A stretch of 13,956 nucleotides of DNA from an uncultured Lachnospiraceae bacterium (lineage in GTDB: Bacteria > Bacillota > Clostridia > Lachnospirales > Lachnospiraceae), in assembly GCA_934370915.1 (NCBI GenBank), contig CAKRNI010000051.1:1-13956 (forward strand), written 5' to 3'. The position numbers were made by a program, and so were the translations under genes. Positions 1-13,956 of the stretch are shown here, one piece after another. The number at the start of each line of letters is the position of its first letter. Positions within the stretch are counted from its first letter, which is position 1. The notes under the pieces were generated by a model that was not told where the DNA came from, did no database searches, and saw nothing but the letters and a program-made list of their open reading frames with translations.

Positions 1-60
1 AAAAAGACCGTCTGTGGGCATAGGATATCTTTCCTGTCATTTCCCGCAGACGGTCTTTTT
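1..60 (-). terminator. Strong intrinsic terminator after the DUF368 gene
   Basis: A perfect 14-bp inverted repeat occupies 1-14 and 47-60. The arms carry GACCGTCTG and CAGACGGTC, and the ends are A5 and T5. The 32-nt loop can form a smaller helix (AGGA/TCCT and GGG/CCC pairs). It starts 3 nt past the stop codon of the minus-strand gene. Because both ends carry T-tracts on their respective strands it could act in both directions and also stop a converging gene outside the window. The first base of the window is inside the A-run, so the element may extend further. Confidence 0.9.
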
Positions 61-63
61 TAT

Positions 64-942
64 TTACCGCTCGCCCACAAATACCGTAACGAAAGCCCCG
101 GCAGCCATGAGGACGATTCCAAATAAGATCTCCCACAGTGACAGGGAGCCGAGCTTCGATACAAGCCCCGTGTTGATAAAGATTGCAATCGGGGACGAGA
201 TCACGAGGCCTAAGATCGCGCAGAATGTCTGCACGCCGTACTTCTCAAAGAGGAACGTGATCAGCTTTGCGATCAGAAAGATTCCCAGAACCACTCCGAT
301 CCCAAACGGCGCCAGGAGCAGGATCCCGTCCTTCATGCCCGCAAGGTCAAAGGCGCGGAGATTGTCAAGGAATGTCTTGATCGTATTGATGATCGCGTAA
401 TAATAGCCGAAGATCATCAGCATCATGGAGCCGGAAACACCCGGAATTACCATTGTGGCAGAAGCCACAATACCGAGGATAAATAAGATCACCATATTCC
501 CCGGAGTCATCGCGATCACCGTGAGGGCGTCCTTGCTCTCCTTTAAGAGCGGCATACCGCCGGAGATCGCAAAGGCGATCACAAAGGCAAGGATTCCAAA
601 GACACCGACCCCTCCCGAAGATACCTTTGCCCTCATGGACGAAAAGATCGCCGGAAGTCCACCGAGGATCAGGCCCACAAATGCCATACAGGTAACGAAG
701 GTATGCTTATCGAGCAGGTATTCGATGGCGTAGGTAAAACCCACAATGCCGATTCCGGCGCCGATAATGATCGGGATCAGAAACAGGATACTCTTTTTGA
801 ATTCCCGAAACAGGCCGGAGATCGAACCGATGAGCCGGTCATAGATACCGAGAGACACCGCCATTGTTCCTCCGGAAACGCCCGGAATGATGTTCGCGAT
901 GCCGATCATGATCCCCTTTATGATATTTCCAAAAAATTCCAT
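64..942 (-). CDS. DUF368 family membrane protein, PopT-type undecaprenyl-phosphate transporter
   Basis: 292 residues, very hydrophobic, with about eight membrane segments. The family hallmark is an internal duplication with two PGVSG loops, seen here at residues 20-26 (PGVSGGT) and 167-172 (PGVSGS). DUF368 proteins (PopT) are established as transporters that return undecaprenyl phosphate from the outer to the inner face of the cytoplasmic membrane for reuse in peptidoglycan and teichoic acid synthesis. The length is normal for the family. The ATG start is supported by GGAGG six bases upstream. The gene is monocistronic: its own promoter lies over the end of the preceding permease gene and a strong terminator follows directly. 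The link with the neighbouring wall-modification operon is thematic and not transcriptional. Family assignment is firm; the exact substrate is inferred from family members. Confidence 0.92.
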   Translation of the reverse strand: MEFFGNIIKGIMIGIANIIPGVSGGTMAVSLGIYDRLIGSISGLFREFKKSILFLIPIIIGAGIGIVGFTYAIEYLLDKHTFVTCMAFVGLILGGLPAIFSSMRAKVSSGGVGVFGILAFVIAFAISGGMPLLKESKDALTVIAMTPGNMVILFILGIVASATMVIPGVSGSMMLMIFGYYYAIINTIKTFLDNLRAFDLAGMKDGILLLAPFGIGVVLGIFLIAKLITFLFEKYGVQTFCAILGLVISSPIAIFINTGLVSKLGSLSLWEILFGIVLMAAGAFVTVFVGER

Positions 943-989
943 GATAAACCTCCGATTTCTCTATCCATATTCCAGATTCAGGAAACGGC

Positions 990-1017
990 AAAACCCGGCA
1001 GTTCCCTGCCAGGTTTT
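990..1017 (-). terminator. Leader hairpin: terminator of the permease gene or popT attenuator
   Basis: A 12-bp inverted repeat with one mismatch (990-1001 and 1006-1017, loop TTCC) lies 50 nt after the permease stop codon. Read on the minus strand the stem is followed by only four T residues and then GCC, so it is a weak-looking terminator. It also lies about 18 nt downstream of the predicted start site of the DUF368 transcript, inside that gene's leader. It can therefore end the permease transcript, attenuate the DUF368 transcript, or stabilise the 5' end of that mRNA. Confidence 0.6.
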
Positions 1018-1041
1018 TCCTCTCCTATTCAGACTTGTTCG

Positions 1042-1070
1042 ATTATACATGATATTCGTTGATCTATCAA
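1042..1070 (-). promoter_or_regulatory. Sigma-A promoter of the DUF368 gene
   Basis: On the minus strand a TTGATA -35 box (1070-1065) is separated by exactly 17 nt from a perfect TATAAT -10 box (1047-1042). The predicted start is near 1035, giving a leader of about 93 nt before the ATG at 942. The -35 box overlaps the TGA stop codon of the upstream permease gene, so the two units abut without free spacer. Confidence 0.82.
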
Positions 1071-3523
1071 TCGTTTTTCAGCACTCCGATGCCTTTTCTA
1101 ACAGATTTTGTACTGATTTTACTGTAATTTAACGCTTTCTCAATGCATTCCGGAACCGTATCTCCCATAATCTGGTAGACCCGTTCATCCACAGTTCCAT
1201 TTCCGGAGGAAAAGGCGCTGTCGGGTTTTATGGACACGACGATCTCGATTCCCATCTCATAGGTGCAAAGGCGGTTTCTGTCAAGCATGACCTCCGGCGC
1301 ACTGGCGGAAAGGATCTCCTCGATCTTCCTCCGGTTCTCCTCCGACCCGTCATTTACGATGGTAATCGTCTTCTGACCGTTATAATAAACAGGGCTCAAT
1401 TCCGTTTCTGTCGCCACTCCCCCGCCGTCTTCGCTGATCGGAACGTCCTCTCCTGTGACCGCATTCTCCCCGGCTGCAGTGTCCTCATACTCCGTCGGAT
1501 ACAGGATCTTTACCTGTGTGACATCAGCCACAGAGAGCTTCGCTGTCACATCCGTGCCCGCCTGCTTTAAGAGGGCAATAGTTTTTGCAAAGGACGGATA
1601 GACCGGAACGAAGTTCACGATCTGCATATCATCCATCCGGAATCCCGGGGAAGTATAGCCTCTCTGGGTGCTGATCGCGCCGAGATACTCATTCTCCGCC
1701 TTTGTGAGAAATCTCAGTGCTGCCACCGGAGCCTCGACGGCTCTCTCATTGATGGTGAGGCCTGCCAGTTCCTCCTGATACGCCGCGAGGATCTCCGCAC
1801 GGAGTGTGTCATCTGCACTCACCTCAAGGATACCACGGTCTGACAGCCAGTAGATCCCCGTAATATTCTCCGGCTGATAGGACATCACCGGATATGTGCC
1901 GTCCTTGTACTCCTTCGTCGCATAGATCTCATCCATAGTACTGCCAAGAACGGAACGGGTGATCCGGTAAGAACGATAAACCGTCTTTCCGTTTTTCTGC
2001 CGATAGCCTGCCTCAACATAGATCATATAGCCGCCGTCATTGCGGTAGCTGTAGGAGTTGTCGCCTTTCAGCCGCAGGTCCCTCTGCTGCTTCGCGTTCT
2101 CTACCGCCTTTTCCGCAAAGGCACGGACTACCGCGTAATCGGTAAGCTTCATATTTGCGTCCGCATAATCACTTGAATTCATATAGCGCCAACTATAAGA
2201 ATCACCGCTCCGGTACGGAAGCCCGCAGTCCGGCTCATTGTCAAGGTTCAGGTCGATGGATGCGGATACAAAGTCCTTTTCATCCGGAATATAGGAATCA
2301 AATCCAAAGACGTCCATCCAGAAGGCTCCCACCACAAGGAGAGCTATGACACCTCCGATCACCGTCTGGACTGGATTTGCAAAAAGCTTCGTGAAATCAA
2401 AATGATAAATGATCTCGATGAGGCAGCTCGTAAGTACAAGTCCAAGTACAAAGCCGACCGCCGCCCATACGCCGCTGTAGTAGATGCACCATAAGAATAC
2501 CGTCGTGGTCACGGTCATCGGAACGAGAAGCAGGATCTTGATCGGCGCCTGAGTCTTCTTAAATGACATGGCCTTTCCCGCCGCCTCCGAAGGGCGGATC
2601 CTATAGAGGACCAGTGCGATCCCGGTGAGGATCACCGCCGCAAAGATCCCGAGTCCACAAAGCTTTAAGAGCTCTGCGCCGCTGTCAGCGGTACTCTGCA
2701 GCTCCATCTGGATCCTGGAAAATCCATAGTCGATATCGTCATAAAACTGGTCTGAGTGAAACATCTCAAGCCCCACGCCTGCCAGCTTTGTGAAATAGCC
2801 GATGGGGGAACCGTATTTTGCAAGCCAATACACATCGCCTTCTCTTCCCCGCGTCACAAAGAACAGGGATTTTAAGCCCTCGATCAGCAGGGAGACCGCC
2901 GGCAAATATCCGTACAGGACGCCTGCGCCGAGGATCGAGATAAAGAGATTCCCTGTGAGAAGCACCGCGATCACCATCACCACATAGATCAGGAGAAATC
3001 CGATCATATTGACCGCGAAGGAAGCAAACATCATCCTGAAAAGATCGCCCGCCGCGATCCCGTTTCCGCAGAAAATTCCAAACGCCGCAAACATATTGAT
3101 CAGGTAAGCGGCCAGGATGATCAGGAATCCGTCAAGGAATTTCACGGCAAACAGCATCTCCCTCTTCACAGGGAGGCTGTTGTAAAAATCGATCTGTTTC
3201 TTTGAGTGGAGATACAAAAATCCTGTGAGTCCGAGAATCATCGCCGCGGCTCCGACCACCATGAAGAGGGCATAATTTTCAAAACCCAGGATCTCACCGG
3301 CAAGCCGCAGGATCTTCGTCTGACGCAGTGCCTCCGGCACCATATTCTCGTATCCGGTTCCGGAGATCAGCCATTGTTTGTACTGGTTTCCGATATTTCC
3401 GATGCCCATGGCTGCCGCCATCGGCATCGCAAAAAACAGCGCCAGAACCGAAAAACCGATGGCCCAGAGTCTCCGCTTCAGGTCCTCCTTCATAAGTTTA
3501 AAAAATAAGTTTCTTGATGTCAT
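1067..3523 (-). CDS. Large ABC transporter permease, DUF6449-type
   Basis: 818 residues from the ATG at 3523. The reading frame is open to a GTG at 3544, but the GGAGG ribosome site lies inside that extension and sits 9 nt before the ATG, so the ATG is the better start. The N-terminal ~400 residues hold about eight membrane helices in the ABC-2 permease style. The remaining ~410 residues are mostly soluble and would face outwards. They are rich in Asp, Glu and Tyr and resemble the DUF6449 region of clostridial permeases. The gene overlaps the end of the ATPase gene by 26 bp, indicating translational coupling. With the GntR regulator it forms a YtrA-type regulator-ATPase-permease operon. The substrate is unknown; relatives are often linked to wall-active antibiotic or envelope stress. 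Permease role is secure; DUF6449 assignment is from recognition of its style. Confidence 0.88.
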   Translation of the reverse strand: MTSRNLFFKLMKEDLKRRLWAIGFSVLALFFAMPMAAAMGIGNIGNQYKQWLISGTGYENMVPEALRQTKILRLAGEILGFENYALFMVVGAAAMILGLTGFLYLHSKKQIDFYNSLPVKREMLFAVKFLDGFLIILAAYLINMFAAFGIFCGNGIAAGDLFRMMFASFAVNMIGFLLIYVVMVIAVLLTGNLFISILGAGVLYGYLPAVSLLIEGLKSLFFVTRGREGDVYWLAKYGSPIGYFTKLAGVGLEMFHSDQFYDDIDYGFSRIQMELQSTADSGAELLKLCGLGIFAAVILTGIALVLYRIRPSEAAGKAMSFKKTQAPIKILLLVPMTVTTTVFLWCIYYSGVWAAVGFVLGLVLTSCLIEIIYHFDFTKLFANPVQTVIGGVIALLVVGAFWMDVFGFDSYIPDEKDFVSASIDLNLDNEPDCGLPYRSGDSYSWRYMNSSDYADANMKLTDYAVVRAFAEKAVENAKQQRDLRLKGDNSYSYRNDGGYMIYVEAGYRQKNGKTVYRSYRITRSVLGSTMDEIYATKEYKDGTYPVMSYQPENITGIYWLSDRGILEVSADDTLRAEILAAYQEELAGLTINERAVEAPVAALRFLTKAENEYLGAISTQRGYTSPGFRMDDMQIVNFVPVYPSFAKTIALLKQAGTDVTAKLSVADVTQVKILYPTEYEDTAAGENAVTGEDVPISEDGGGVATETELSPVYYNGQKTITIVNDGSEENRRKIEEILSASAPEVMLDRNRLCTYEMGIEIVVSIKPDSAFSSGNGTVDERVYQIMGDTVPECIEKALNYSKISTKSVRKGIGVLKND

Positions 3524-4397
3524 ATCCTGCCACCTCCGTTTCACTGATAAAGATTTCTTCCAAAGACAGCGGAATCAGCTCGAAGAACAGCGGTTCGCAG
3601 GCTGCCATCTGCCGTTCTACGTTCTCCCTCGCGCCGCGGACGGTGATCGTCGCGAGACTTCCCCTGTATTCCGTCTTTAAAATATCAAGCTCCGTAAGGT
3701 CTTCCACTTTTATGCCGGGTTTTAAGACACACTGGATCTTGTGAATGTTTAACTTCATATCGTCCAGATCCTTGGAGAGCAGGATCCCGCCTTTGTGTAA
3801 AAGGCCGACATGATCACAGATATCCTCCAGCTCTCTCAGGTTGTGGGACGCAATGATCGGAGTCAGATTCCGCTCCGCCATATCACTTGCAAACAGGCTC
3901 TTTACCGCCTGACGCATCACCGGATCCAGACCGTCAAAGGTCTCGTCGCAGAAGATATAGTCCGTCCCCGCGCAGATTCCGTAAAGAATGGAAAGCTGCT
4001 TTTTCATCCCCTTTGAGAATGTGGAGATCTTTCTCTTTTTGTCCAGATCAAAGGACTGCAGGAGATGGAAAAATCTCGGCTCATCAAAGGCCGGATAGAT
4101 AGACTTATAAAATTTCATAAGCTCCAACGGAGTTCCGTTGGCGAAAAAATACTGGTCATCAGAGATGTAAAAGAATCTCGATTTCACCGCCGGGTTCTCG
4201 TACACGTTTTCACCGTCGATCAGCACTGCTCCCTCATCCGGTTTTAAGATTCCGCTGACCATACGCAGAAATGTACTTTTTCCGGCACCGTTCGTTCCGA
4301 TCAGTCCGAACACACTGCCGTCCCTGATCTTCGCGCTGATGTGATCGACCGCCAGAATATCATCAAACCGTTTTGTCAATCCGTTTGTCTCGATCAT
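3498..4397 (-). CDS. ABC transporter ATP-binding protein of a YtrA-type operon
   Basis: 299 residues, one nucleotide-binding domain. Walker A is GTNGAGKST at residues 34-42, the Q-loop glutamine is near residue 82 (DDQYFF), and the signature region is FSKGM (127-131) in place of the usual LSGGQ. Walker B with the catalytic pair is CDETFDGLDP, with D151 and E152, and the switch histidine is H185 (ASHNLRE). The C-terminal ~90 residues resemble the regulatory extension of CcmA/YhcH-like ATPases. It would power the permease encoded next. The ATG overlaps the TGA stop of the GntR gene (ATGA, 4 bp), so the two are translationally coupled. All catalytic residues are present, so it should hydrolyse ATP; the transported substrate is not evident. 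Confidence 0.95.
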   Translation of the reverse strand: MIETNGLTKRFDDILAVDHISAKIRDGSVFGLIGTNGAGKSTFLRMVSGILKPDEGAVLIDGENVYENPAVKSRFFYISDDQYFFANGTPLELMKFYKSIYPAFDEPRFFHLLQSFDLDKKRKISTFSKGMKKQLSILYGICAGTDYIFCDETFDGLDPVMRQAVKSLFASDMAERNLTPIIASHNLRELEDICDHVGLLHKGGILLSKDLDDMKLNIHKIQCVLKPGIKVEDLTELDILKTEYRGSLATITVRGARENVERQMAACEPLFFELIPLSLEEIFISETEVAGYDIKKLIF

Positions 4398-4783
4398 TCG
4401 TCTCCACCTCCGTTCCTCTTTGCCGCTTTATACTGAATCTCTACCATATTTTTGATCTCCTCGCCGGGAATTCCCACCCGGATCGCCTCATCGATCATAT
4501 CACTCACCTGAAGGAGAACTTCCTTCTTCCTGTTTTCCTTCATCACTGTATTATCTGCCACAAAACTTCCCTTCCCCTTCACTGTGTAAATATATCCCTG
4601 CCGCTCCAGTTCCACGTAGGCGCGCTGAATTGTATTTGGGTTGATGGAGAGCTCCATCGCCAGAGCCCGCACCGACGGCAGCGGTTCATTCTCTTTCATG
4701 ACGCCGAGCAGCATCAGTTCCTCGAGCTTCGAGACCACCTGTTCGTAGATGGGGCGGCGGTCTTTGTAATCTAATATGATCAC
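4394..4783 (-). CDS. GntR family transcriptional regulator, YtrA subfamily
   Basis: 129 residues from a GTG start at 4783. An ATG two codons upstream (4789) directly abuts the AAGGAGG ribosome site with no spacer, whereas the GTG has an ideal 6-nt spacing and gives the N-terminus MIILDYKDRRPIYEQ, typical of this subfamily. The first ~70 residues form the GntR winged helix-turn-helix (PSVRALAMELSINPNTIQRAYVELE region, then the wing GYIYTVKGKGSFV). The remaining ~55 residues are a short helical tail without an effector domain, as in YtrA proteins. These usually repress their own ABC-transporter operon, and a matching operator lies at 4962-4986. The gene is first in the operon and overlaps the ATPase gene by 4 bp. 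Inducer unknown. Confidence 0.93.
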   Translation of the reverse strand: MIILDYKDRRPIYEQVVSKLEELMLLGVMKENEPLPSVRALAMELSINPNTIQRAYVELERQGYIYTVKGKGSFVADNTVMKENRKKEVLLQVSDMIDEAIRVGIPGEEIKNMVEIQYKAAKRNGGGDE

Positions 4784-4796
4784 AGGCATCCTCCTT

Positions 4797-4947
4797 TCTG
4801 TGCATCGTAGTGTAAGTCCGACATGTGTCTTCTTGTTTTCATTTCATGAAAACAAGAAGCTATGGGCGTTGCCCATATACAGCCATATACCAAAAAGTGC
4901 TTATGCAAGCAAGCTTGCAACACACTTTTTCGCATATGTCTGTGCAT
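4797..4947. repeat. Hairpin-rich leader element flanked by a 9-bp direct repeat
   Basis: TCTGTGCAT occurs at 4797-4805 and again at 4939-4947. The 133 bp between them contain three separate inverted repeats: a perfect 14-bp stem with a 3-nt loop (4829-4842 / 4846-4859), a perfect 7-bp stem (4861-4867 / 4871-4877), and an 8-bp stem AAAAAGTG/CACTTTTT (4892-4899 / 4923-4930) enclosing an inner 7-bp stem (4904-4910 / 4913-4919). The layout suggests either a small non-autonomous mobile element with target duplication or a structured 5' leader RNA of the GntR operon. No terminal inverted repeat is obvious. The stretch contains no gene. Confidence 0.55.
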
Positions 4948-4961
4948 GTCCCAACTGTTTT

Positions 4962-4986
4962 ACTGTATTATCACTCTTAATACACT
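4962..4986 (-). promoter_or_regulatory. Predicted YtrA-type operator of the GntR-ABC operon
   Basis: On the minus strand AGTGTA (4986-4981) and TACAGT (4967-4962) are separated by 13 nt. The known YtrA operator is AGTGTA-N13-TACACT, so this is a match with one change. The symmetry extends inwards (AGTGTATTA / TAATACAGT). It begins immediately after the -10 box and covers the predicted start site, a position suited to repression by the regulator encoded downstream. Confidence 0.78.
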
Positions 4987-4987
4987 T

Positions 4988-5016
4988 AGTATAGAAAAAA
5001 AGACCTGCAATGTCAA
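4988..5016 (-). promoter_or_regulatory. Sigma-A promoter of the GntR-ABC operon
   Basis: A consensus TTGACA -35 box (5016-5011) and a TATACT -10 box (4993-4988) are separated by 17 nt on the minus strand. The predicted start near 4981 leaves a leader of almost 200 nt. The -35 box sits in the loop of the terminator that ends the preceding operon, and the T-run of that terminator forms much of the spacer. Confidence 0.82.
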
Positions 5017-5035
5017 TGAACATCACAGGTCTTTT
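4995..5035 (-). terminator. Intrinsic terminator of the dlt-type operon
   Basis: A perfect 10-bp stem AAAAGACCTG/CAGGTCTTTT (4998-5007 and 5026-5035) with an 18-nt loop that can pair further (ATGT/ACAT). It is followed on the minus strand by seven T residues (5001-4995). It lies 14 nt after the lipoprotein stop codon. Its core resembles the terminator at 11636-11675. Confidence 0.9.
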
Positions 5036-5049
5036 CTCTTACAAAATTC

Positions 5050-5643
5050 TTACGCTTCCGGTGTGATCGCCGTGTACTCAACAGAATCGATCACTCCGTC
5101 CGTCACAAGGAACTGGAGTCTGGACTTATCCTTCGTGTAAGTATAAGCGCCGAACTCTTCCTCATAATCGGTACCGTATGCCGCTTCCATCTCCTCTTTT
5201 GTGGAACCGATATGGATCCCTTCCGGTGTGGAGACGGTATCATCGACAAAATAAACCGAGTTCACATTATCCTTACCGTTTAACGGGTATGTATAGAGAT
5301 CGAATCCCGGATAAGAATACGTCTTATCAAGGCCCTTGAAGGCACAGCTCGTCGTCTCAGCATAGTTTTCCCACTCTCCGAGTCCCTCGAGGATCGGAGC
5401 CGCATCTGCGTTCATCGCGATCACCGTGTCACCTGCTACGAAGGTGAAGCCGGTAATCTCTGCCTCCTCAGCGCTCTCAGATGCTTCCGCCGTCGTCTCA
5501 GCAGCCTGACTGCTCTCTGCCGCCGTTGTCTCGGTAGCCTCTGTCTTTGCAGCCGCTGTGCTTCCGGCACCACTGCCGGAGCCGCAGCCTGCCATGGACA
5601 GCGCTGCTGTCATAAGAACCATTGTGAACATTGTTTTTTTCAT
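5050..5643 (-). CDS. Small surface lipoprotein at the end of the dlt-type operon
   Basis: 197 residues. A lipoprotein signal peptide is clear: MKK, a hydrophobic core, then lipobox MAGC with the lipidated Cys at residue 20. Residues 21-62 are a low-complexity Ala/Thr/Ser/Glu linker that would span the wall. The C-terminal ~135 residues form a compact acidic, Tyr-rich domain with GIHIGSTKEEMEAAYG (142-157), a pattern seen in SmpA/BLIP-like folds of secreted lipoproteins; I do not recognise a named family. ATG start with GGAGGAG upstream. It follows the dltD-like gene by 45 nt containing a short hairpin, and precedes the operon terminator, so it is probably co-transcribed. A role in wall-polymer acylation or sensing is inference from position only. 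Confidence 0.88.
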   Translation of the reverse strand: MKKTMFTMVLMTAALSMAGCGSGSGAGSTAAAKTEATETTAAESSQAAETTAEASESAEEAEITGFTFVAGDTVIAMNADAAPILEGLGEWENYAETTSCAFKGLDKTYSYPGFDLYTYPLNGKDNVNSVYFVDDTVSTPEGIHIGSTKEEMEAAYGTDYEEEFGAYTYTKDKSRLQFLVTDGVIDSVEYTAITPEA

Positions 5644-5661
5644 AATCTTCTCCTCCTGACG

Positions 5662-5679
5662 TCCCGGATCCTTCCGGGA
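5662..5679 (-). other. Intercistronic hairpin before the lipoprotein gene
   Basis: A perfect 7-bp stem TCCCGGA/TCCGGGA with a 4-nt loop lies between the dltD-like stop and the ribosome site of the lipoprotein gene. No T-run follows on either strand, so it is unlikely to terminate. It could protect the mRNA end or set the relative level of the lipoprotein. Confidence 0.5.
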
Positions 5680-5688
5680 TCTGCCATT

Positions 5689-6759
5689 TTATTCTTTATC
5701 ACTGTTGAACATCTTCAGATACCCGTAGGTGTCAAGCTCCTCCTGCTGTCTTTTCTCCATATCATAATAGGCAGCGCATTTCTCAGCCCATACAGAAGCG
5801 ATCGCTTCATCCGCCCGTCTGTCCGGAACCTGAAATTCATCGCGCAGAATCTTTCCGAAATATGCTCCCATCTTTTCTGCTCCGGAAAGATTTAAATGGA
5901 GTCCGCCGTCATACGTATCCTTCGTAAAGTCGATCCCGACCTCGTCTGTGAGCTCGAGGAAATTATAATAGGGAAGCTCATAGGTCTTCGCATACTCCTC
6001 AATCTGCTCCTCCCACTCATCGTACCACGCCGGATATAAGCTCGGCGCCTTCACAAGGATCAGCTGAATGCCGTTCTCCTCACAGAGCTTTCGCATCTTC
6101 TCCAGATACTTCCATGAATTTTCACCAAATTCATAATTGGCAAGCTTCTTCGGCTTTGGGAACGTCTGGGCCGGCTTCACATCGATCCGCATATAATATC
6201 CACTCTGGGAAACAGGCCGCCTCGTGAACAGATATTTAAAATCATCTGATGTGAGTTCCTGCCATCTGGAGTGATAGCGAAGGATCGGGAATACATAGTC
6301 CGCAAACTCCTCGTCCTCCATCATGGAGGCTCTGATGTCATCCACCTTCGACTTCGACCACTTCATCCCGTCCAGGGTCATCCGGTTATACGCCTCCTTC
6401 TGGGGAGTATCATACTTCATGGAGAGCACATTGAATACAACGACCTCAGGCTTTTCATACTCAAGCGTCTCCTCCAACAGGTAATAGGACTGCCAGATCA
6501 GCTGCTGGGCACTTCCCCTGATGTAGCTTGTGATTCCGTAGTCCTCCCACATGGTGATCGGTGAGAAATTCTCGTAAACTTCGCAGTCCCCGATAAAGAC
6601 GACATCATGATCCGTCGTTTCCTTATAATATTCGGAAATCAGTGCGCCCTCCACGATGTCACCCATATATTTCGGCATCAGAAGCCGCTGTAACAACCAT
6701 AAGCCTCCCAGAACGACCAGTCCGAGTCCCAGGAATACCGATAACGATCTTTTTTTCAT
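5689..6759 (-). CDS. dltD: DltD-like SGNH-fold acyltransferase with Cys in the nucleophile position
   Basis: 356 residues, shorter than the ~400-430 usual for DltD. A short N-terminus plus one membrane helix (residues ~6-28) anchors an extracellular domain. The first SGNH block is VVFIGDCEVYENFSP (53-67), where DltD proteins have GSSE; the nucleophile position is Cys59 instead of Ser. A possible block III Asn is N110 (VVVFNVLSMKYD), and the last block is YDGGLHLN with D284 and H288. In known systems DltD acts outside the membrane in the final transfer of D-alanine to teichoic acid. The ATG start has GGAGG overlapping the stop codon of the MBOAT gene, only 12 nt away, indicating coupling. The fold and operon role are well supported; the acyl group and acceptor are not. 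It could also be called a generic SGNH/GDSL hydrolase. Confidence 0.85.
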   Translation of the reverse strand: MKKRSLSVFLGLGLVVLGGLWLLQRLLMPKYMGDIVEGALISEYYKETTDHDVVFIGDCEVYENFSPITMWEDYGITSYIRGSAQQLIWQSYYLLEETLEYEKPEVVVFNVLSMKYDTPQKEAYNRMTLDGMKWSKSKVDDIRASMMEDEEFADYVFPILRYHSRWQELTSDDFKYLFTRRPVSQSGYYMRIDVKPAQTFPKPKKLANYEFGENSWKYLEKMRKLCEENGIQLILVKAPSLYPAWYDEWEEQIEEYAKTYELPYYNFLELTDEVGIDFTKDTYDGGLHLNLSGAEKMGAYFGKILRDEFQVPDRRADEAIASVWAEKCAAYYDMEKRQQEELDTYGYLKMFNSDKE

Positions 6760-6771
6760 ATTCCCTTCCTC

Positions 6772-8364
6772 CTAAAACTGATTGTAAATGAACTGGCTGG
6801 AATCAAAGCCAACACCGTAGGCGCCAAAAATAAGCACGGCAAGGAACAGACCGTACCAGCACACAAACCGGACGATCAGCGGTTTTGCCGCAATCTTTTC
6901 CCGCACACTTCCGCTCCTCTGAATCAGGCTCGTCATAATAAGGATCAAAAGCCCGACGAACAGGACCAGATAATCTGCTGCCGCAAGCCCCAGTGTCTGG
7001 AATCTTCCATCAAAGAGCTGCGGGATCCTCGAATATACCAGCATGTTCCCAAACATCCGGAAGGTAAGCGGAACATCCCGGTAGCAGTCAAACATGCGGA
7101 GCGAGCTCATGAGCAGGATCGTCCTTGCGACCTGAAACATCTTATACCACAGCGTTCCATCCACGGAAAAATGTTTATGGAACCACTTGTAACACGGCTC
7201 CAGCTCCTGAGAAATCATGAGGACCACAAAGTTCATCATTCCCCAGACGATAAAATTCCAGGCCGCCCCATGCCAGATTCCCGTCGCAAACCATACGACG
7301 GCGCTGGCTGTGTAGACCGGCATGCGCTTTCCAATGTACTCGCCGAAATGCTTTCTCGCGAATTTATTGAACCTTAACATCGGATCCGACACGGAGATCG
7401 GATAGAAAATATAGTCCGTAAACCAGGTTCCCATGGTGATATGCCAGCGTCTCCAGTATTCCGCGATATTTTTTGAGAAATACGGGCGGTGGAAGTTCTC
7501 TTTCAGGTGGATCCCAAACAGCTCCGCCGTGCCGATGGTGATATCGATTCCGCCGGTGAAATCCGCATAGAGCTCCAGAGCATAGAACATCATTCCCAGA
7601 AACACATAGATCCCATCATAAGTCGCCGGGTCATGGATGATCGTGTTGACCGCGGTCAGGATCCGGTCGGCGATCACAAGCTTCTTAAAGAATCCCCACA
7701 GGATCCGCTGAAGGCCAAAGGAAACTGCTTTCCAGTCAAACTTATGGTCTGCCCACATATCTCCCGACACATCGTCAAAGCGGCTGATGGGTCCCTGAAC
7801 CACCTGAGGGAAGAAAGAAATAAACAGCGCAAAAGAAAAAAGCCCTTTTTTCGCCGGATATTTTCCGCGGTAAACATCTACGAGATATCCCACAGCCATA
7901 AACGTATAGAAGGAGATTCCCATCGGAAGGATCATGTTCTTAAAGCTGATCGGCTCCCCCGCATGGAATGCGTCCAGAAAAAAATTGACATTCGCGATGG
8001 CAAAGTTCGTATACTTTAAAACCGCAAGAATTCCCAGATTAAAGAAAAGACATGCGAGCATCCATTTCCGCTGGATTTTTTTCATCCCTGCTTTATAGGC
8101 CTTTCTCTCTTCCTTTGTGAGTTTCGCCTTATTTTCTTTTATATACGCGGCAGAGATTTCCCCGTAATGACCGATCTTTAAGGCAGCAAAATAAGTGGTC
8201 ACGGTCGTCACCATGATAAAGATCAGGTTTTTCGGACCGGACCAGTAGTAGAACAGATAGCTGGCCGCCAAAAGCAGCTGCCACTGGAACCTTCTACACA
8301 GTGTGTAGTAAAGGACCAGAACAGCCGCTAAAAACGCCAGAAATCCGTAGGATGTAAATAACAC
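6772..8364 (-). CDS. dltB: MBOAT family O-acyltransferase, DltB-like
   Basis: 530 residues, about eleven membrane segments. MBOAT motifs are clear: PMGISFYTF (147-155), QGPISRF (190-196), ENFHRPYFSKNIAEYWRRWHIT (289-310, with H308) and GIWHGAAWN with the conserved membrane His365. In Dlt systems this protein passes D-alanine from the carrier protein to the outer face of the membrane. The protein ends in SSQFIYNQF; a Tyr-containing aromatic C-terminal tail of this kind is found in the separate DltX microprotein, which has no gene here. The start is GTG (8364) rather than ATG; the ribosome site GAGGAG lies in the last two codons of dltC, 6 nt before the start after the stop codon. It could also be grouped with AlgI-type MBOATs, but the neighbours argue for DltB. 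Confidence 0.92.
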   Translation of the reverse strand: MLFTSYGFLAFLAAVLVLYYTLCRRFQWQLLLAASYLFYYWSGPKNLIFIMVTTVTTYFAALKIGHYGEISAAYIKENKAKLTKEERKAYKAGMKKIQRKWMLACLFFNLGILAVLKYTNFAIANVNFFLDAFHAGEPISFKNMILPMGISFYTFMAVGYLVDVYRGKYPAKKGLFSFALFISFFPQVVQGPISRFDDVSGDMWADHKFDWKAVSFGLQRILWGFFKKLVIADRILTAVNTIIHDPATYDGIYVFLGMMFYALELYADFTGGIDITIGTAELFGIHLKENFHRPYFSKNIAEYWRRWHITMGTWFTDYIFYPISVSDPMLRFNKFARKHFGEYIGKRMPVYTASAVVWFATGIWHGAAWNFIVWGMMNFVVLMISQELEPCYKWFHKHFSVDGTLWYKMFQVARTILLMSSLRMFDCYRDVPLTFRMFGNMLVYSRIPQLFDGRFQTLGLAAADYLVLFVGLLILIMTSLIQRSGSVREKIAAKPLIVRFVCWYGLFLAVLIFGAYGVGFDSSQFIYNQF

Positions 8365-8367
8365 GCC

Positions 8368-8595
8368 TTACTCCTCGTCAAGACGGCGGATCAGGTTCCA
8401 GATCGCCTCCGCGGAGTTAAAGTTCTCCGGCACGATCTCGTCAGCCGGGATCGTAACGTCAAATTCGTCCTTGATCTGTGTGATCAGTGTCACGATGTCG
8501 AAGGAATCGAGAATTCCGTCGTCGATCAGGGTATCGCAGGACTCGAAGTCCACATCTTCGTGTAAATCAGATAACATATCTAAAAGTTCATTCAT
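8368..8595 (-). CDS. dltC: DltC-like acyl (D-alanyl) carrier protein
   Basis: 75 residues, the usual size for a discrete carrier protein. The phosphopantetheine site is Ser31 in DDGILDSFDIVTL (25-37), with DSF where fatty-acid carriers have DSL; DSF is common in DltC. The protein is strongly acidic and predicted to be four-helical. It would be charged by the adenylating enzyme encoded just upstream and would deliver the aminoacyl group to the MBOAT protein encoded directly downstream. It starts 18 nt after the dltA stop behind a modest AGAGG ribosome site, and its stop lies 3 nt before the dltB start. Identification is firm; the loaded amino acid is inferred. Confidence 0.93.
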   Translation of the reverse strand: MNELLDMLSDLHEDVDFESCDTLIDDGILDSFDIVTLITQIKDEFDVTIPADEIVPENFNSAEAIWNLIRRLDEE

Positions 8596-8613
8596 GGTTT
8601 CAGTTCCTCTCTC

Positions 8614-10128
8614 CTATAAATTTGCACACCTGTTTTTTAATTCCATCCGGTTGAGCTTTCCGTTTGCCGTAAACGGCATCTCTTCGATCTTCTCCACGAG
8701 ATTCGGGATCATATAGCGCGGAAGCTTTTCCTTTAACACCTTGATGATATCCTTTCCCTCTGCGTCACCGACATAGAACAAAACGATCTTTTCCCGCTCC
8801 TTGTCATAAACGCAGCAGGACATGCGGATCCCTGCCATCTGGTTCACATGGACCTCGATCTCTCCAAGCTCGATCCGGTGTCCCATGTGCTTGATCTGGT
8901 GATCCTTTCTCGAGACAAACACGAGTTCTCCAAACTCATTGTATCGTCCGATATCGCCGGTCCGGTAGATCAGCTCCGGATAACAATCGTTCAACGGGTT
9001 CTGGACGAATACTTCCTTCGTCTTCTCCGGGTTCCTGTAGTATCCCAGAGTCACGCAGGTTCCGCGGATGCAGATCTCACCGGTCTCTCCCTCTCCCGCC
9101 AGCTGATCCTCATCATTTAAGAGAAGGATCTCCGTATTCTTAAAGGGGCGTCCGATGGGAATCACGTCATCCGGGCCAAATTCCCGGTTGACCCTGTAAT
9201 AGCAGGACATTCCAGTGCACTCGGTCGGTCCGTAAAGATTCGTAAACTGTGCCCCTGGAAGCGCCTGTCTCCAGAGATTGAACTGTTTAATCGGGAAGAC
9301 CTCACTTCCGAATGCCACCGTGTGAAGATACTTCGGCACAACCTTGTCAAAGGTTCCCATAGATGAGATCATCGTCAGTGCCGATACGACCCAGCACACC
9401 GTATTGATCTGATTCTCATTCAGATATTCCACCAGCTTCACCGGGAACATAAACAGACTCTTCGGTATCAGATATGTCGTAGCCCCAAACATCATGGTCG
9501 GGTACAGTTCCTTTAAGCAGGCGTCAAAATAAAGCGGTGACTGATTTCCGAAGACGGTCTCCCGGTTAAATCCAAGAACCCGGGAAAGATTCTCCACATA
9601 ATCGAGAACGGACCTGTGGCAGGCCGCAACGCCCTTCGGAACTCCGGTGGAACCGGAGGTAAATACGATGTAGATCGGATCCGTGTCCATAGAGGCCTCG
9701 CGGATCTCTGCCAGCTTCCCATCCTGAATCTCCGTCTTCACTGCATCCTCAAACCTGAGAGTATGGCCGGGAAAGCCGATCTTTATCAGCTTCTTCTCCG
9801 TATACGCGTCACAGATCATCAGACGCGGTTTTAATGTCTCCAGGATCAGGGATACGCGGTATTCCGGCATCTCCTCATCAAAGGGAACATAAAAGCACCG
9901 CCCGTAGACAGCGCCGTAAAACGCGGCAACCGCCTCCGGACTTTTCTTCATATAGATCACGACCGGTTCCCGGTAAAAGCCTTCACGGGACAGATAGCTT
10001 CCGATCGCACGGGAATACCGGAAGACCTCCGCAAAGGTCAGTCCATGTTTTCCATCGGTATAGGCAGTTTTATCCGGAACTTCTTTCACCGTTTTTTCGA
10101 GATATTCCAGAATATTTGTCTGTATCAT
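8614..10128 (-). CDS. dltA: DltA-like amino acid adenylating enzyme (D-alanine--carrier ligase family)
   Basis: 504 residues, typical of DltA. It is a complete adenylation enzyme: P-loop FTSGSTGVPKG (156-166), substrate-pocket Asp202 (YFDACLKE), YGPTEC (299-304), YRTGD with D392, hinge region VSRKDHQIKHMGHRIELGEIE (405-425), and catalytic Lys491 in NGKLNR. It would use ATP to form an aminoacyl-adenylate and load the DltC-like carrier. Asp202 fits binding of the amino group as in DltA. In FGSEVFP (273-279), however, Gly274 falls where Bacillus DltA has the Cys tied to D-alanine selectivity. ATG start with GAGG upstream; 25 nt after the transglutaminase-like gene, leaving no room for dltX. Family firm; substrate D-alanine only probable. 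Confidence 0.92.
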   Translation of the reverse strand: MIQTNILEYLEKTVKEVPDKTAYTDGKHGLTFAEVFRYSRAIGSYLSREGFYREPVVIYMKKSPEAVAAFYGAVYGRCFYVPFDEEMPEYRVSLILETLKPRLMICDAYTEKKLIKIGFPGHTLRFEDAVKTEIQDGKLAEIREASMDTDPIYIVFTSGSTGVPKGVAACHRSVLDYVENLSRVLGFNRETVFGNQSPLYFDACLKELYPTMMFGATTYLIPKSLFMFPVKLVEYLNENQINTVCWVVSALTMISSMGTFDKVVPKYLHTVAFGSEVFPIKQFNLWRQALPGAQFTNLYGPTECTGMSCYYRVNREFGPDDVIPIGRPFKNTEILLLNDEDQLAGEGETGEICIRGTCVTLGYYRNPEKTKEVFVQNPLNDCYPELIYRTGDIGRYNEFGELVFVSRKDHQIKHMGHRIELGEIEVHVNQMAGIRMSCCVYDKEREKIVLFYVGDAEGKDIIKVLKEKLPRYMIPNLVEKIEEMPFTANGKLNRMELKNRCANL

Positions 10129-10153
10129 CTTTCGTTCCTCACTGTATTTTTAA

Positions 10154-11533
10154 TCACGGAGACGGAGTCGTCGGGGTAGCCGGATATTTCGAGTGGTCGA
10201 TCTTATGGCTTCCGCGGCCCGTTGTGTTGGAATAGTTCTCCAGCTGTGCATCTGTCAGAAGGCAGAAGGTTCCGCCTGCTGAACGCGGAGTTGTATCAAA
10301 ATGATACCAGCCGTTTCCACAGTCTACAAGACTCCACCAGTGATGTCCATCTGTGCGGATCACTTCCAGATTTGCGATTCCTGCCTTATCCAGAAGAGCC
10401 TTCGATACCGAATAATAGGTATAGCAGTCTCCGCGCTTTGTCCGGAAGCCGGTATAAGCGGATTTCACCCAGTTTCCTTTCTCGGAGTGATTTACATAGC
10501 GCATATTGGAGCGTACCCAGGAGTAGATCGCTCTCGCTTTCTGGGTCTTATTCATAGAAGCGTTGGTGATCTTTGCAAGGGTCTGCTCTGCCATCGCATT
10601 CACCTGAGCCGTCATCTCCGCATCGCTTGCAGCCGGAACCTGTTCCGTTACCACTCTGCTCTGTGTTTTTTGTGCCTGTGAGGCTGGCTTTACCGCAGCG
10701 ATTCCATTTGCATCAAATACATATAACACACCGTCGACGGTCTGCTCCGTATTCTTCAGCGCTTTTCCATCCGCGCCAAGATAGCGTCTTCCACCCTCGA
10801 CATCATGCCAGCCAGTCTGCATTGCGCCGCCTGTCATGTCAAAATAGTAGGAGGCGCCGTCGATATCCTGCCAGCCGGTACGCATTGCGCCATCCGCCCC
10901 CAGAAGATACCAGGCACCGTCACCGCCGATCTGCTGTAATCCGGTGCGCATGATCCCATCGTCACCGAGATAATAGTAGACACCGCCGACCTTCTGCCAG
11001 CCGGTTTCCATCCTGCCGTCCGCCCCCATATAGTAATAGACGTCATTCAGCTTCAGCCAGCCTTTTACGGCAATCCCATCTTCACCAAGATACAGCCATT
11101 TTCCGTCCTTTTCTTTCCATTCACTGCGAAGGATCGTGTTCTTATCCTCACGGTATATCCAGCCGTTATTCGTAAGGATCCAGCCTTCTGTAGCCTTCAT
11201 CGGCAGGAGGATTCCATACTCATCTGCATGATAATACTGGCTGTCCAGCTGGACATTTACATTCGTATACATAACGCCATCAGGATCCATGATATAACGC
11301 GCCAGATCTCCCTGCATGACACCGGTTACCGCATATCCGTCTTTTCCGAAGTAATACCAGTTGCCGTTTTCTTCCTGATGCCATTCATTCTGCAGATAGG
11401 ACCCGTCATCGTTGCGATACCAGGTTCCTGCCGTATCTTTTACAAGTTCACCGGCGAATGACGGAAACGTCAGGCAGAGTGTGCTGATCCCTGCTAAAAG
11501 CGCGATCCGTTTTCCTTTCATATGCCTTTTCAT
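10154..11533 (-). CDS. Secreted wall-binding protein with transglutaminase-like domain
   Basis: 459 residues. A signal peptide (KRIALLAGISTLCLTFPSFA, cleavage near residue 27) is followed by about ten ~20-residue choline-binding-like wall repeats from ~35 to 280, of the form GWQKVGGVYYYLGDDGIMRT. A polar linker (~281-305) leads to a C-terminal transglutaminase-like domain (~306-450). Its Cys-His-Asp triad is C370 (KRGDCYTYY), H398 (GHHWWSLV) and D413 (YHFDTTPR). Bacterial members with this fold act as proteases, peptidases or cross-linking enzymes on the surface. The ATG at 11533 has GGGAGG 8 nt upstream; a second ATG at codon 5 is less well spaced. It is the first gene of the operon and lies 25 nt before dltA, so co-expression with wall acylation is likely. 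Its substrate is unknown. Confidence 0.92.
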   Translation of the reverse strand: MKRHMKGKRIALLAGISTLCLTFPSFAGELVKDTAGTWYRNDDGSYLQNEWHQEENGNWYYFGKDGYAVTGVMQGDLARYIMDPDGVMYTNVNVQLDSQYYHADEYGILLPMKATEGWILTNNGWIYREDKNTILRSEWKEKDGKWLYLGEDGIAVKGWLKLNDVYYYMGADGRMETGWQKVGGVYYYLGDDGIMRTGLQQIGGDGAWYLLGADGAMRTGWQDIDGASYYFDMTGGAMQTGWHDVEGGRRYLGADGKALKNTEQTVDGVLYVFDANGIAAVKPASQAQKTQSRVVTEQVPAASDAEMTAQVNAMAEQTLAKITNASMNKTQKARAIYSWVRSNMRYVNHSEKGNWVKSAYTGFRTKRGDCYTYYSVSKALLDKAGIANLEVIRTDGHHWWSLVDCGNGWYHFDTTPRSAGGTFCLLTDAQLENYSNTTGRGSHKIDHSKYPATPTTPSP

Positions 11534-11559
11534 ATTGTGTTCCTCCCTTTCTTCTTGAA

Positions 11560-11588
11560 AGTATAGAACAACCCCTATCGTTTTGCAA
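11560..11588 (-). promoter_or_regulatory. Promoter of the transglutaminase-dlt operon
   Basis: TTGCAA (11588-11583) and TATACT (11565-11560) are separated by 17 nt on the minus strand. The predicted start near 11553 gives a leader of only about 20 nt, ending in the GGGAGG ribosome site. The -35 box is 4 of 6 to consensus, suggesting moderate or activator-assisted use. Confidence 0.7.
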
Positions 11589-11594
11589 CCCCTA
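11569..11594 (-). promoter_or_regulatory. Tandem 9-bp direct repeat over the dlt promoter
   Basis: TAGGGGTTG is present twice on the minus strand, at 11594-11586 and 11577-11569, with an 8-nt gap and a 17-nt start-to-start distance. One copy overlaps the -35 box and the other lies in the promoter spacer. The arrangement resembles a direct-repeat operator for a response regulator, but no regulator gene is in the window to test this. Confidence 0.5.
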
Positions 11595-11635
11595 AATACT
11601 CAACTATGACCATTGTCTCGTTTTTCACAGCAAGC

Positions 11636-11675
11636 AAAAAAGGACCTGTAATGTCCGAAAACATTACAGGCCCTT
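11636..11675 (-). terminator. Intrinsic terminator of the pyruvate:ferredoxin oxidoreductase gene
   Basis: A 15-bp stem with one G-U pair (11640-11654 and 11661-11675, loop CCGAAA on the plus strand) is followed on the minus strand by a six-T run (11641-11636). It lies 13 nt after the stop codon and separates this gene from the dlt-type operon. Confidence 0.93.
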
Positions 11676-11688
11676 CATTATCTTTCAA

Positions 11689-13956
11689 TTACTTCTCGTC
11701 GTAGAGTGTAACTAACTTCTCAAGGTAAGCGTACTTATCCTTAGCGTTCTGCTCTGCCTTAGCAAACAGCTTCTCAGCTCTTGCCGGGTTCTTAAGTGCG
11801 AGAGATGTGTAACGAACCTCACCCTTGATGAACTCCTGGTAGTCAACTGTAGCCGGCTTGCAGTCAAGGCTGAACTTCTTGCCCTCAGCTGCCGGGTTGA
11901 ATCTGAAGAGATTCCAGTAACCGGACTGAACAGCAAGCTTCTCCTCTGTCTGAGCCTTTGCCATACCCTTCTTGATACCATGGTTGATACACGGAGCGTA
12001 TGCAATGATCAGGGACGGTCCCGGATATGCCTCAGCCTCAGCGATTGCCTTGATAGTCTGGTTCATATCAGCACCCATGGAGATCTGTGCAACGTATACG
12101 TAGCCATAGCTCATAGCGATTGCAGCAAGGTCTTTCTGCTTAACTTCTTTACCGCCTGCAGCGAACTGAGCAACAGCACCTGTCGGAGTAGCCTTGGAGG
12201 ACTGTCCGCCTGTGTTGGAGTAAACCTCAGTGTTGAATACCATGATGTTGATATCCTTGCCGCTTGCAAGTACGTGGTCAACACCGTTGAATCCGATATC
12301 GTAAGCCCATCCGTCACCACCGAAGATCCACTGGGACTTCTTAGCCAGGAAATCTTTGTTGTTAACGATGTCCTTGCATGTCGGGCAATCGATGTTCTCA
12401 AGAGCTGCAACAAGTTTGTCAGTTGCAACGCCGTTTGTAGCGCCGACACTGAATGTGTCTAACCACTCCTGGCAAGCAGCCTTAACTTCTGCTGTTGCGT
12501 TCTCATTTGCAGCAACTTCCTCAACTTTAGCCTTTAAGCCATCGCGGATTGCCTGCTGAGCGAGTAACATACCATAACCGAACTCAGCGTTATCCTCGAA
12601 CAGGGAGTTAGACCAAGCCGGTCCCTTGCCTGCCTTGTTAGCTGTGTAAGGTGTGGACGGTGAAGAGTTACCCCAGATAGAAGAACATCCTGTTGCGTTT
12701 GCGATGTACATTCTGTCACCGAATAACTGTGTGATCAGTTTTGCGTACGGCGGCTCACCACAGCCTGCGCATGCACCGGAGAACTCAAGGAGCGGCTGTT
12801 TGAACTGGCTGCCCTTTACAGTTGTCTCTTTGAATTTATCGATTACATCCTGCTTGATGTCAAGTGTCTGGCCGTAGTTGAATACTTCCTGCTCTGCAGT
12901 GTTTCCTTCAAGCGGAACCATTGTAAGAGCCTTCTCACCCTTCTTGCCCGGGCATACGTTCGCACAGGAACCACATCCGGTACAGTCAAGAGCGGAAATT
13001 GTCATAGCGAACTTGTACTCCGGCATACCAGTCATCGGGATGGTCTTTGTGCCAGCCGGTGCCTTAGCAGCCTCTTCCTCTGTCATAGCTACCGGACGGA
13101 TAACTGCGTGCGGGCAGACATAAGAACAGAAGTTACACTGGATACAGTTGTCCGGATTCCAAACCGGTACGTTAACTGCGATACCACGTTTCTCGTATGC
13201 AGCGGAACCGGACGGAGTTGTACCGTCAACGTAATCCTTGAATGCGGATACCGGGAGGTTGTTACCTTCCTGAGCATTTACAGCAGCCTGAATGTTGTTA
13301 ACGAAGTTGATAACATCCTCGCGGCCCTCTGTAGCGTGAACCATGTCAAGACCTTCGTCTTCACAGTTCTTCCAGCTCTCCGGAACCTGAACCTCTACAA
13401 GTCCCTTAGCGCCGGCATCGATCGCTGCCCAGTTCTTCATAACAACGTCTTCACCCTTACGGCCGTAAGTAGCCTTTGCAGCTGCTTTCATAAGCTCGTT
13501 AGCCTTGTCAGCCGGGATGATCTTTGTTAACTCGAAGAATGCGGACTGAAGGATTGTGTTGATACGGGTCGGGCCCATGCCTGTCTCAATACCAAGTTTA
13601 ACACCGTCGATGGTGTAGAATTTGATGTTGTGGTCAGCGATGAACTTCTTAACCTGTCCCGGTAAGTGCTTCTCAAGACCCTCAGCATCCCACGGGCAGT
13701 TGAGGAGGAATGTACCGCCGTCAACAAGCTCCTGAACCATGTTGTACTTACGGATGTATGCCGGGTTATGACATGCAACGAAGTTTGCTTTGTGGATCAG
13801 GTATGTGGACTTGATCGGAGTATGTCCGAAACGTAAGTGGGACATTGTAACACCGCCGGACTTCTTGGAGTCATAATCGAAGTAAGCCTGAGCGTACATG
13901 TCTGTGTTGTCACCGATGATCTTGATGGAGTTCTTGTTAGCACCTACAGTACCGTC
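11689..13956 (-). CDS. nifJ: Pyruvate:ferredoxin (flavodoxin) oxidoreductase, 3' part; 5' end outside window
   Basis: 755 residues are visible, starting in frame at the window edge (DGTVGANKNS), so roughly 420 N-terminal residues of a ~1175-residue family are missing; the Met at 13899 is internal. The enzyme oxidises pyruvate with CoA to acetyl-CoA and CO2, reducing ferredoxin, in the cytoplasm. Visible parts: the end of the gamma-like domain (SHLRFG...), a two-cluster ferredoxin domain with CIQCNFCSYVCP (near 13146-13114) and CTGCGSCANVCP (near 12984-12952), the third cluster cysteines in CAGCGEPP and ATGCSSIWG, and the thiamine diphosphate site GDGWAYDIGFNG with EVYSNTGGQ. No key residue is missing. 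Codon use is more strongly biased than in the neighbours, as expected for a highly expressed fermentation gene. Confidence 0.97.
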   Translation of the reverse strand, partial: DGTVGANKNSIKIIGDNTDMYAQAYFDYDSKKSGGVTMSHLRFGHTPIKSTYLIHKANFVACHNPAYIRKYNMVQELVDGGTFLLNCPWDAEGLEKHLPGQVKKFIADHNIKFYTIDGVKLGIETGMGPTRINTILQSAFFELTKIIPADKANELMKAAAKATYGRKGEDVVMKNWAAIDAGAKGLVEVQVPESWKNCEDEGLDMVHATEGREDVINFVNNIQAAVNAQEGNNLPVSAFKDYVDGTTPSGSAAYEKRGIAVNVPVWNPDNCIQCNFCSYVCPHAVIRPVAMTEEEAAKAPAGTKTIPMTGMPEYKFAMTISALDCTGCGSCANVCPGKKGEKALTMVPLEGNTAEQEVFNYGQTLDIKQDVIDKFKETTVKGSQFKQPLLEFSGACAGCGEPPYAKLITQLFGDRMYIANATGCSSIWGNSSPSTPYTANKAGKGPAWSNSLFEDNAEFGYGMLLAQQAIRDGLKAKVEEVAANENATAEVKAACQEWLDTFSVGATNGVATDKLVAALENIDCPTCKDIVNNKDFLAKKSQWIFGGDGWAYDIGFNGVDHVLASGKDINIMVFNTEVYSNTGGQSSKATPTGAVAQFAAGGKEVKQKDLAAIAMSYGYVYVAQISMGADMNQTIKAIAEAEAYPGPSLIIAYAPCINHGIKKGMAKAQTEEKLAVQSGYWNLFRFNPAAEGKKFSLDCKPATVDYQEFIKGEVRYTSLALKNPARAEKLFAKAEQNAKDKYAYLEKLVTLYDEK

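Follow-up and report, generated by a model that had tools for sequence, protein, structure and literature searches.

In the Dlt pathway (DltXABCD), D-alanine (D-Ala) borne on a carrier protein is passed to the tyrosine of an FXYXXF motif in DltX, and other members of the membrane-bound O-acyltransferase (MBOAT) family bear this motif at their own C-terminus, according to excerpts of PMC12148441; FLYFGF is one DltX instance of the motif, given in an excerpt of PMC11035591. Here we analysed a 13,956-nucleotide stretch of DNA from an uncultured Lachnospiraceae bacterium (assembly GCA_934370915.1, contig CAKRNI010000051.1, positions 1 to 13,956 of the forward strand), hereafter the window, whose open reading frame (ORF) listing contains six minus-strand genes in the order TG, A, C, B, D and LP. 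Their products are, in that order, a transglutaminase-like secreted protein, an amino-acid adenylation enzyme of the stand-alone type, a carrier protein, an MBOAT acyltransferase, a membrane-anchored SGNH-fold protein and a lipoprotein. This six-gene cassette is not a member of Dlt and is not a rearranged dlt operon. It is a widespread variant of MBOAT-SGNH acyl transfer, previously undescribed within open-licence PubMed Central, where our literature searches found no description of the cassette.

An initial annotation of the window had called the locus a dlt-type operon. A (10128-8614, minus strand, as are all cassette features; 504 aa) exceeded the cut-off of TIGR01733, the general amino-acid adenylation model (319.1 versus 317.4 bits), and fell below both DltA models (TIGR01734, 254.9 versus 559.85 bits; NF003417, 271.1 versus 476 bits). 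C (8595-8368; 75 aa) passed PF00550 (22.1 versus 20.8) and failed the DltC models (TIGR01688, 28.8 versus 52.35; NF003464, 35.4 versus 68), and B (8364-6772; 530 aa) passed the Pfam MBOAT model PF03062 (39.6 versus 27) and failed the DltB model TIGR04091 (135 versus 375). D (6759-5689; 356 aa) gave no match to the DltD family in profile searches, its sole family match being to Lipase_GDSL_2 below the cut-off (21.7 versus 32.9). Given that A, C and B score below the equivalog thresholds and that D is without a DltD match, the term dlt-type fits as a likeness, in that the same enzyme classes are present, but not as membership. The family cut-offs and the pocket code of A rule out a canonical dlt operon with shuffled genes. 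The further suggestion that this is a distinct acylation system is supported.

The cassette is kept together in many Clostridia. In a first sample, consisting of the best 80 loci found with D as the query (58-71% identical), all six genes were present in 59 loci, 53 of which also had an amino acid racemase gene, and the gene order of the window was kept in 50 of the 80 when the racemase was disregarded. Individually, the genes were present in 62 (TG), 70 (A), 71 (C), 77 (B), 75 (LP) and 57 (racemase) of these loci. Where D had 6 kb or more upstream and 2.5 kb or more downstream, the six genes were found in 52/52 loci and the racemase in 47/52. The two surface proteins therefore belong to the system, as had been suspected: the survey of neighbourhoods proposed for that claim found TG and LP in every one of these well-flanked loci. 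Permuted gene orders in several loci (L001, L025, L050, L070, L078 and others) indicate that the gene set is maintained through rearrangement. When the other ORFs of 73 loci were clustered, the racemase family appeared in 45 and the next commonest family in 7, indicating that the cassette has sharp edges. The racemase gene lay by the cassette in 19 of 22 genomes, elsewhere in 2 (37-41% identical) and was not found in 1. D or the cassette occurred in 21/120 genomes of one family, 35/295 of its order and 3/398 phylum-wide. In Gottfriedia endophytica (L011), a Bacillaceae genome, a Clostridia-type cassette with the racemase after LP is accompanied by canonical dlt genes, which suggests horizontal transfer.

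D adopts an SGNH fold, as revealed by an AlphaFold2 model and structure comparison, and it carries His288 and, instead of the GDS serine, Cys59 (codon at 6583..6585). The first 80 loci were unable to settle how this cysteine is distributed, because GDCE is itself part of one of the two search patterns, and genomes were hence sampled by protein search. The resulting table of 59 loci comprises 19 of the 21 orthologues from the one-family genome sample, orthologues from the wider sample at no more than 58% identity and 16 distant relatives; it excludes nine wider-sample orthologues at 59-64%, taken without wide flanks, and L148 (3.2 kb). Residue 59 was Cys in 43/43 D proteins with a D profile score of at least 431 and Ser in 16/16 with a score of at most 308. 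Cys-type D was accompanied by TG in 36/43 loci, or 31/32 where more than 4 kb was available on both sides (the exception being L170), and by LP in 39/43, or 30/32 with such flanks; A or C was present in 29/43. Among the Ser-type loci, TG was found in 0/16, LP in 0/16, and A and/or C in 5/16, TG and LP having been sought with profiles built from the first 80 loci, by which very divergent members could be missed. Fourteen Cys-type loci were counted without A/C, in five of which one flank extends no more than 4 kb, so that the genes may be beyond the contig end; the other nine have flanks of more than 4 kb. Taken together, the cysteine in D goes with TG and LP, irrespective of the A/C donor. The cysteine as a consequence of an aminoacyl donor is ruled out, since Ser-type D occurs with A/C and Cys-type D occurs without them. 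The initial annotation was silent both on this link and on the racemase.

In a tree of D, the 44 Cys rows form one clade (100/99). Its neighbour is L130, a locus with A-C-B-D and a Ser-type D, and the rows closest to the clade are of this kind, L130 being placed at 99/94 and L186/L188 more weakly. Donor presence changes at several places within the Cys clade, some of the absences being contig ends. This pattern of one clade with a varying donor implies that Cys, TG and LP perhaps came together once, and that the donor module was changed or lost more than once.

The two other outer proteins also carry invariant cysteines. TG (11533-10154; 459 aa) matched Transglut_core PF01841 (41.4 versus a cut-off of 23) and PF19127 (83.3). 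PF01841 was matched by 54/54 TG proteins, in all of which Cys370, His398 and Asp413 are invariant. A PDB profile search with the TG core gave marginal matches only, the best being to the transglutaminase-like 3isr (E 0.059). It had been proposed that wall-binding repeats could hold TG on the polymers being modified, a proposal that does not generalize: choline-binding-type repeats, of a superfamily common to choline-binding proteins, glucansucrases and clostridial toxin repeats, occur in 1/54 TG proteins, that of the window, whereas a surface Ig-like domain occurs in 53/54. Such repeats are thus ruled out as a general targeting device. In L127, a cassette without A/C, a peptidase M15 gene (D-Ala-D-Ala dipeptidase-like; 4124-6271 of L127) lies directly upstream of TG, a hint of peptidoglycan. 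LP (5643-5050; 197 aa) has a lipobox cysteine, Cys20, found in 71/76 LPs, and a second cysteine, Cys100, in an (S/N)CA motif, which is invariant in 50 LPs and present in 39/39 further ones, with or without A/C. The LP model (pLDDT 92-98 over residues 61-190) has an alpha/beta fold of two lobes that resembles YjgB and the N-terminal portion of a protein with a CAP domain. A Foldseek search with LP gave no match at E <=0.001, and the VIA matches indicate fold and not function.

B ends in FIYNQF (6775..6792), an acyl-shuttle motif of the FXYXXF form known from DltX, in which F, I, Y and the final F are kept in 74/74 B proteins, as are His308 and His365. In comparison, the canonical DltB of L200 is 383 aa long and has no ending of the FXYXXF type. 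The initial annotation had noted the absence of dltX. As a gene it is indeed absent, there being no space for a separate dltX between the cassette genes; as a function motif it is present, fused to the C-terminus of B. With this ending of its own, B is built like PatA/AlgI and yet fed by a carrier protein, and the phosphopantetheine serine of C (Ser31) was present in 71/71. The cassette thus has several marks of an MBOAT-SGNH system, namely an MBOAT with invariant histidine, the C-terminal FXYXXF tyrosine motif and an adjacent SGNH-fold partner, but the Ser-His-Asp triad of that partner is lacking, with Cys for Ser in 43/43 and Asp and His varying in some.

By alignment, the ten-residue pocket code of A is DAKSAGLGMK, compared with DLMSLCTVAK in the canonical Gottfriedia DltA, a difference at 7/10 positions. 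Lys206 of A (9511..9513), at PheA-type position 239, is the proposed reader of an acidic side chain; at this position A proteins have K in 61 and R in 4 of 65, and the canonical DltA of L200 has Met. Nonribosomal peptide synthetase (NRPS) domains for Glu have K, and those for aminoadipate R, at position 239. A text search for the NRPS Glu code in open-licence PubMed Central yielded no paper. In a wider set of 93 A domains, 71 share their locus with a racemase and have K or R at 239 in 71/71, and the 22 without a racemase at the locus have K in 15, R in 2, H in 2, and Q, L and I in 1 each. The basic residue combined with the racemase suggests that the substrate is an acidic, probably D-, amino acid, Glu or Asp-like. 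The earlier suggestion that the amino acid differs from D-Ala is accordingly supported as probable by the code of A and by the racemase in relatives.

Donors of other kinds were also observed. The A domains of L124, L125, L128 and L167 have very different codes, and L124, L125 and L167 lack Asp235, which binds the alpha-amine; these three may use a substrate other than an amino acid. Two cassettes without A have an FkbH-domain protein between D and B (L163:6673-8562; L183:2816-4606), scoring 248.8 (L163) and 287.5 (L183, the shorter locus) against the TIGR01686 cut-off of 146.65. FkbH proteins load glyceryl groups onto carrier proteins, and their presence in L163 and L183 suggests a non-amino-acid donor.

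On balance, we propose that the cassette encodes an MBOAT-SGNH-type system for ATP-driven acyl export, specialised for an amino acid other than D-Ala, a proposal that we hold to be somewhat on the probable side. The sequences show its gene set, its motifs, the SGNH fold and cysteine of D, and the link of that cysteine with TG and LP. A racemase, which in the window's species would lie elsewhere in the genome, if present, would supply an acidic D-amino acid, Glu or Asp-like. A would adenylate this amino acid and then load it onto C as a thioester. B would take the acyl group from C across the membrane and onto the tyrosine in its C-terminal FIYNQF motif, which stands in for DltX. The aryl ester on the tyrosine of B would then pass to Cys59 of D as a thioester, and TG and LP, both of which have an invariant cysteine, would act in the final extracytoplasmic step. 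We infer the substrate, the order of these transfers, the thioester on D and the role of TG and LP.

The invariant cysteine in each of the three outer proteins suggests thiol chemistry outside the cell. Transfer from a tyrosine ester to a cysteine is possible, and the acyl group of a thioester, in contrast to that of an ester on serine, could be passed on again, to another cysteine enzyme or an amine; a thioester that can be relayed on would explain the change from Ser to Cys in D where TG occurs. We therefore also consider, tentatively and as a possibility that we regard as doubtful, a surface thioester relay running from the carrier through the MBOAT tyrosine ester and the cysteine of D to the cysteine of TG and perhaps Cys100 of LP. 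The acyl group would thereby keep the energy of a thioester outside the membrane, and TG could make an amide instead of an ester on a surface amine. The donor module of such a relay would be interchangeable: an acidic amino acid supplied by A/C with the racemase, other A-domain types, an FkbH-type protein, or none nearby. No MBOAT-SGNH system that uses cysteine, or that passes an acyl group to a transglutaminase fold, was found in open-licence PubMed Central.

Several observations weigh against the proposal of a dedicated export system for an acidic amino acid. In the window, the cassette is without an amino acid racemase. The reading of Lys at position 239 as a sign of an acidic side chain rests on NRPS codes, and a basic residue at 239 does not mark the cassette, as it is also present in 17/22 A domains without a racemase, including those of four A-C-B-D loci with Ser-type D. 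The retention of canonical dlt in Gottfriedia indicates that the cassette does not simply replace Dlt. Since Cys-type D forms a single clade, its association with TG and LP may stem from a single event in an ancestor. Finally, D departs from what a classical triad would lead one to expect: L176, L177 and L182 have Asp in place of His288, and 11/43 Cys-type D proteins have N or S in place of Asp284.

Among the alternatives, a divergent Dlt pathway that esterifies D-Ala to teichoic acid, its genes rearranged and its sequences altered by neutral drift, would account for the same four enzyme classes and for an A that is still DltA-like (271 bits to NF003417). A DltB above the cut-off was detected in just 1/22 cassette genomes, that of Gottfriedia, and the cassette could fill that place in the other 21. 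However, A, C and B miss the equivalog cut-offs, D lacks a DltD match and has Cys for Ser, the code of A is unlike that of canonical DltA at seven of the ten positions, and the Gottfriedia genome holds both systems, so that we consider this explanation improbable.

It is also conceivable that D itself delivers the acyl group as an ester to hydroxyls of surface glycans, with TG and LP as accessories, TG acting as a hydrolase of the wall or as a peptidase and LP serving in regulation or docking. We judge this unlikely, as it leaves unexplained both why Cys replaces Ser in D exactly where TG and LP occur and why Cys100 of LP is invariant. Alternatively, TG might be a true cross-linker that joins the free amine of a polymer-bound amino acid to glutamines of surface proteins and thereby anchors them. 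The intact Cys-His-Asp in 54/54 TG proteins is in accordance with such a role, and an ester-linked amino acid would offer the amine, but TG is kept in 8/9 loci that lack A/C and have flanks of more than 4 kb, where an acyl group without an amine is expected, which makes cross-linking very unlikely. Of these explanations, export of an amino acid other than D-Ala is the one we prefer.

At the level of the operon, the gaps reported earlier (TG-A 25, A-C 18, C-B 3, B-D 12 and D-LP 45 nt) and the order A-C-B-D both match the ORF coordinates. The claim that one promoter and one terminator enclose the genes holds for the terminator (hairpin at 4998..5034, 3' of LP), where the minus-strand segment 5045-4990 has a folding energy of -26.2 kcal/mol (z -8.2), matched by 0/200 shuffles. 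The promoter is only plausible: the weak candidate TTGCAA-17-TATACT at 11588-11560 has 9/12 consensus matches, and 8 promoter-like sites were observed in the region versus 7.8 expected from shuffles. The same strand has five weak terminator-like sites within the operon (9915, 8385, 8216, 6827 and 6813; pattern only, unfolded). The region's best promoter-like site, TTGACA-17-TATACT (11/12; 4988-5016, minus), falls within the descending arm of the cassette terminator and would drive the downstream GntR-ABC genes. The sequence CCTGTRATGT...ACATTRCAGG is common to the cassette terminator and to that at 11639-11676 of a neighbouring pyruvate:ferredoxin oxidoreductase-like gene, and the two are possibly one repeated element. 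About 4 kb beyond the cassette, in a separate transcription unit, lies a gene of the undecaprenyl-phosphate translocase family (64-942, minus; PF04018, 129.6 bits; NF052563 PopT, 154.8 versus a cut-off of 400). Rfam and tRNA scans of the window gave no matches, and a search of a plasmid collection gave none.

Dlt-type control of envelope charge is a route to antimicrobial-peptide tolerance and host signalling. If our proposal is true, a parallel system adding negative rather than positive net charge, or amide-linked acyl groups, would revise the view of the surface of gut Clostridia. The cassette also offers a natural test of the acyl-shuttle model, in that the donor modules and the Ser/Cys site vary while the MBOAT tyrosine motif is constant.

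Compared with known systems, the racemases of the cassette's relatives resemble TIGR00035 and CuyB racemases, passing the cut-offs of both TIGR00035 and the cysteate racemase model NF052483 in 5/5 cases tested, but they differ in their linkage to an adenylation-carrier-MBOAT module, and none is in the window; a text search on cysteate racemase in open-licence PubMed Central was of no help on the substrate. As in PatA/PatB and AlgI-type O-acetyltransferases, the MBOAT of the cassette bears the C-terminal tyrosine motif and has an SGNH partner outside the membrane; those systems, in contrast, use acyl-CoA, have no ligase or carrier and employ a Ser nucleophile, and excerpts of PMC12148441 name no TG or LP for them. 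The four-gene Ser-type loci (L130, L186, L188, L191 and L192) share the ligase, the carrier, the MBOAT and a related SGNH protein, but have Ser in D, and no TG, LP or racemase was found in them; they appear to be a second uncharacterised aminoacylation system. Four of these five loci have K at position 239, and L186 has a GNAT-type protein of 263 aa between A and B. With the Dlt pathway itself, the cassette has in common an adenylating ligase, a carrier protein, an MBOAT, a membrane-anchored SGNH protein and the FXYXXF motif, and it differs in the order A-C-B-D, in a motif fused to the MBOAT in place of a separate DltX, in the code of A, in the Cys of D, in the additional TG and LP and, in most relatives, in the racemase.
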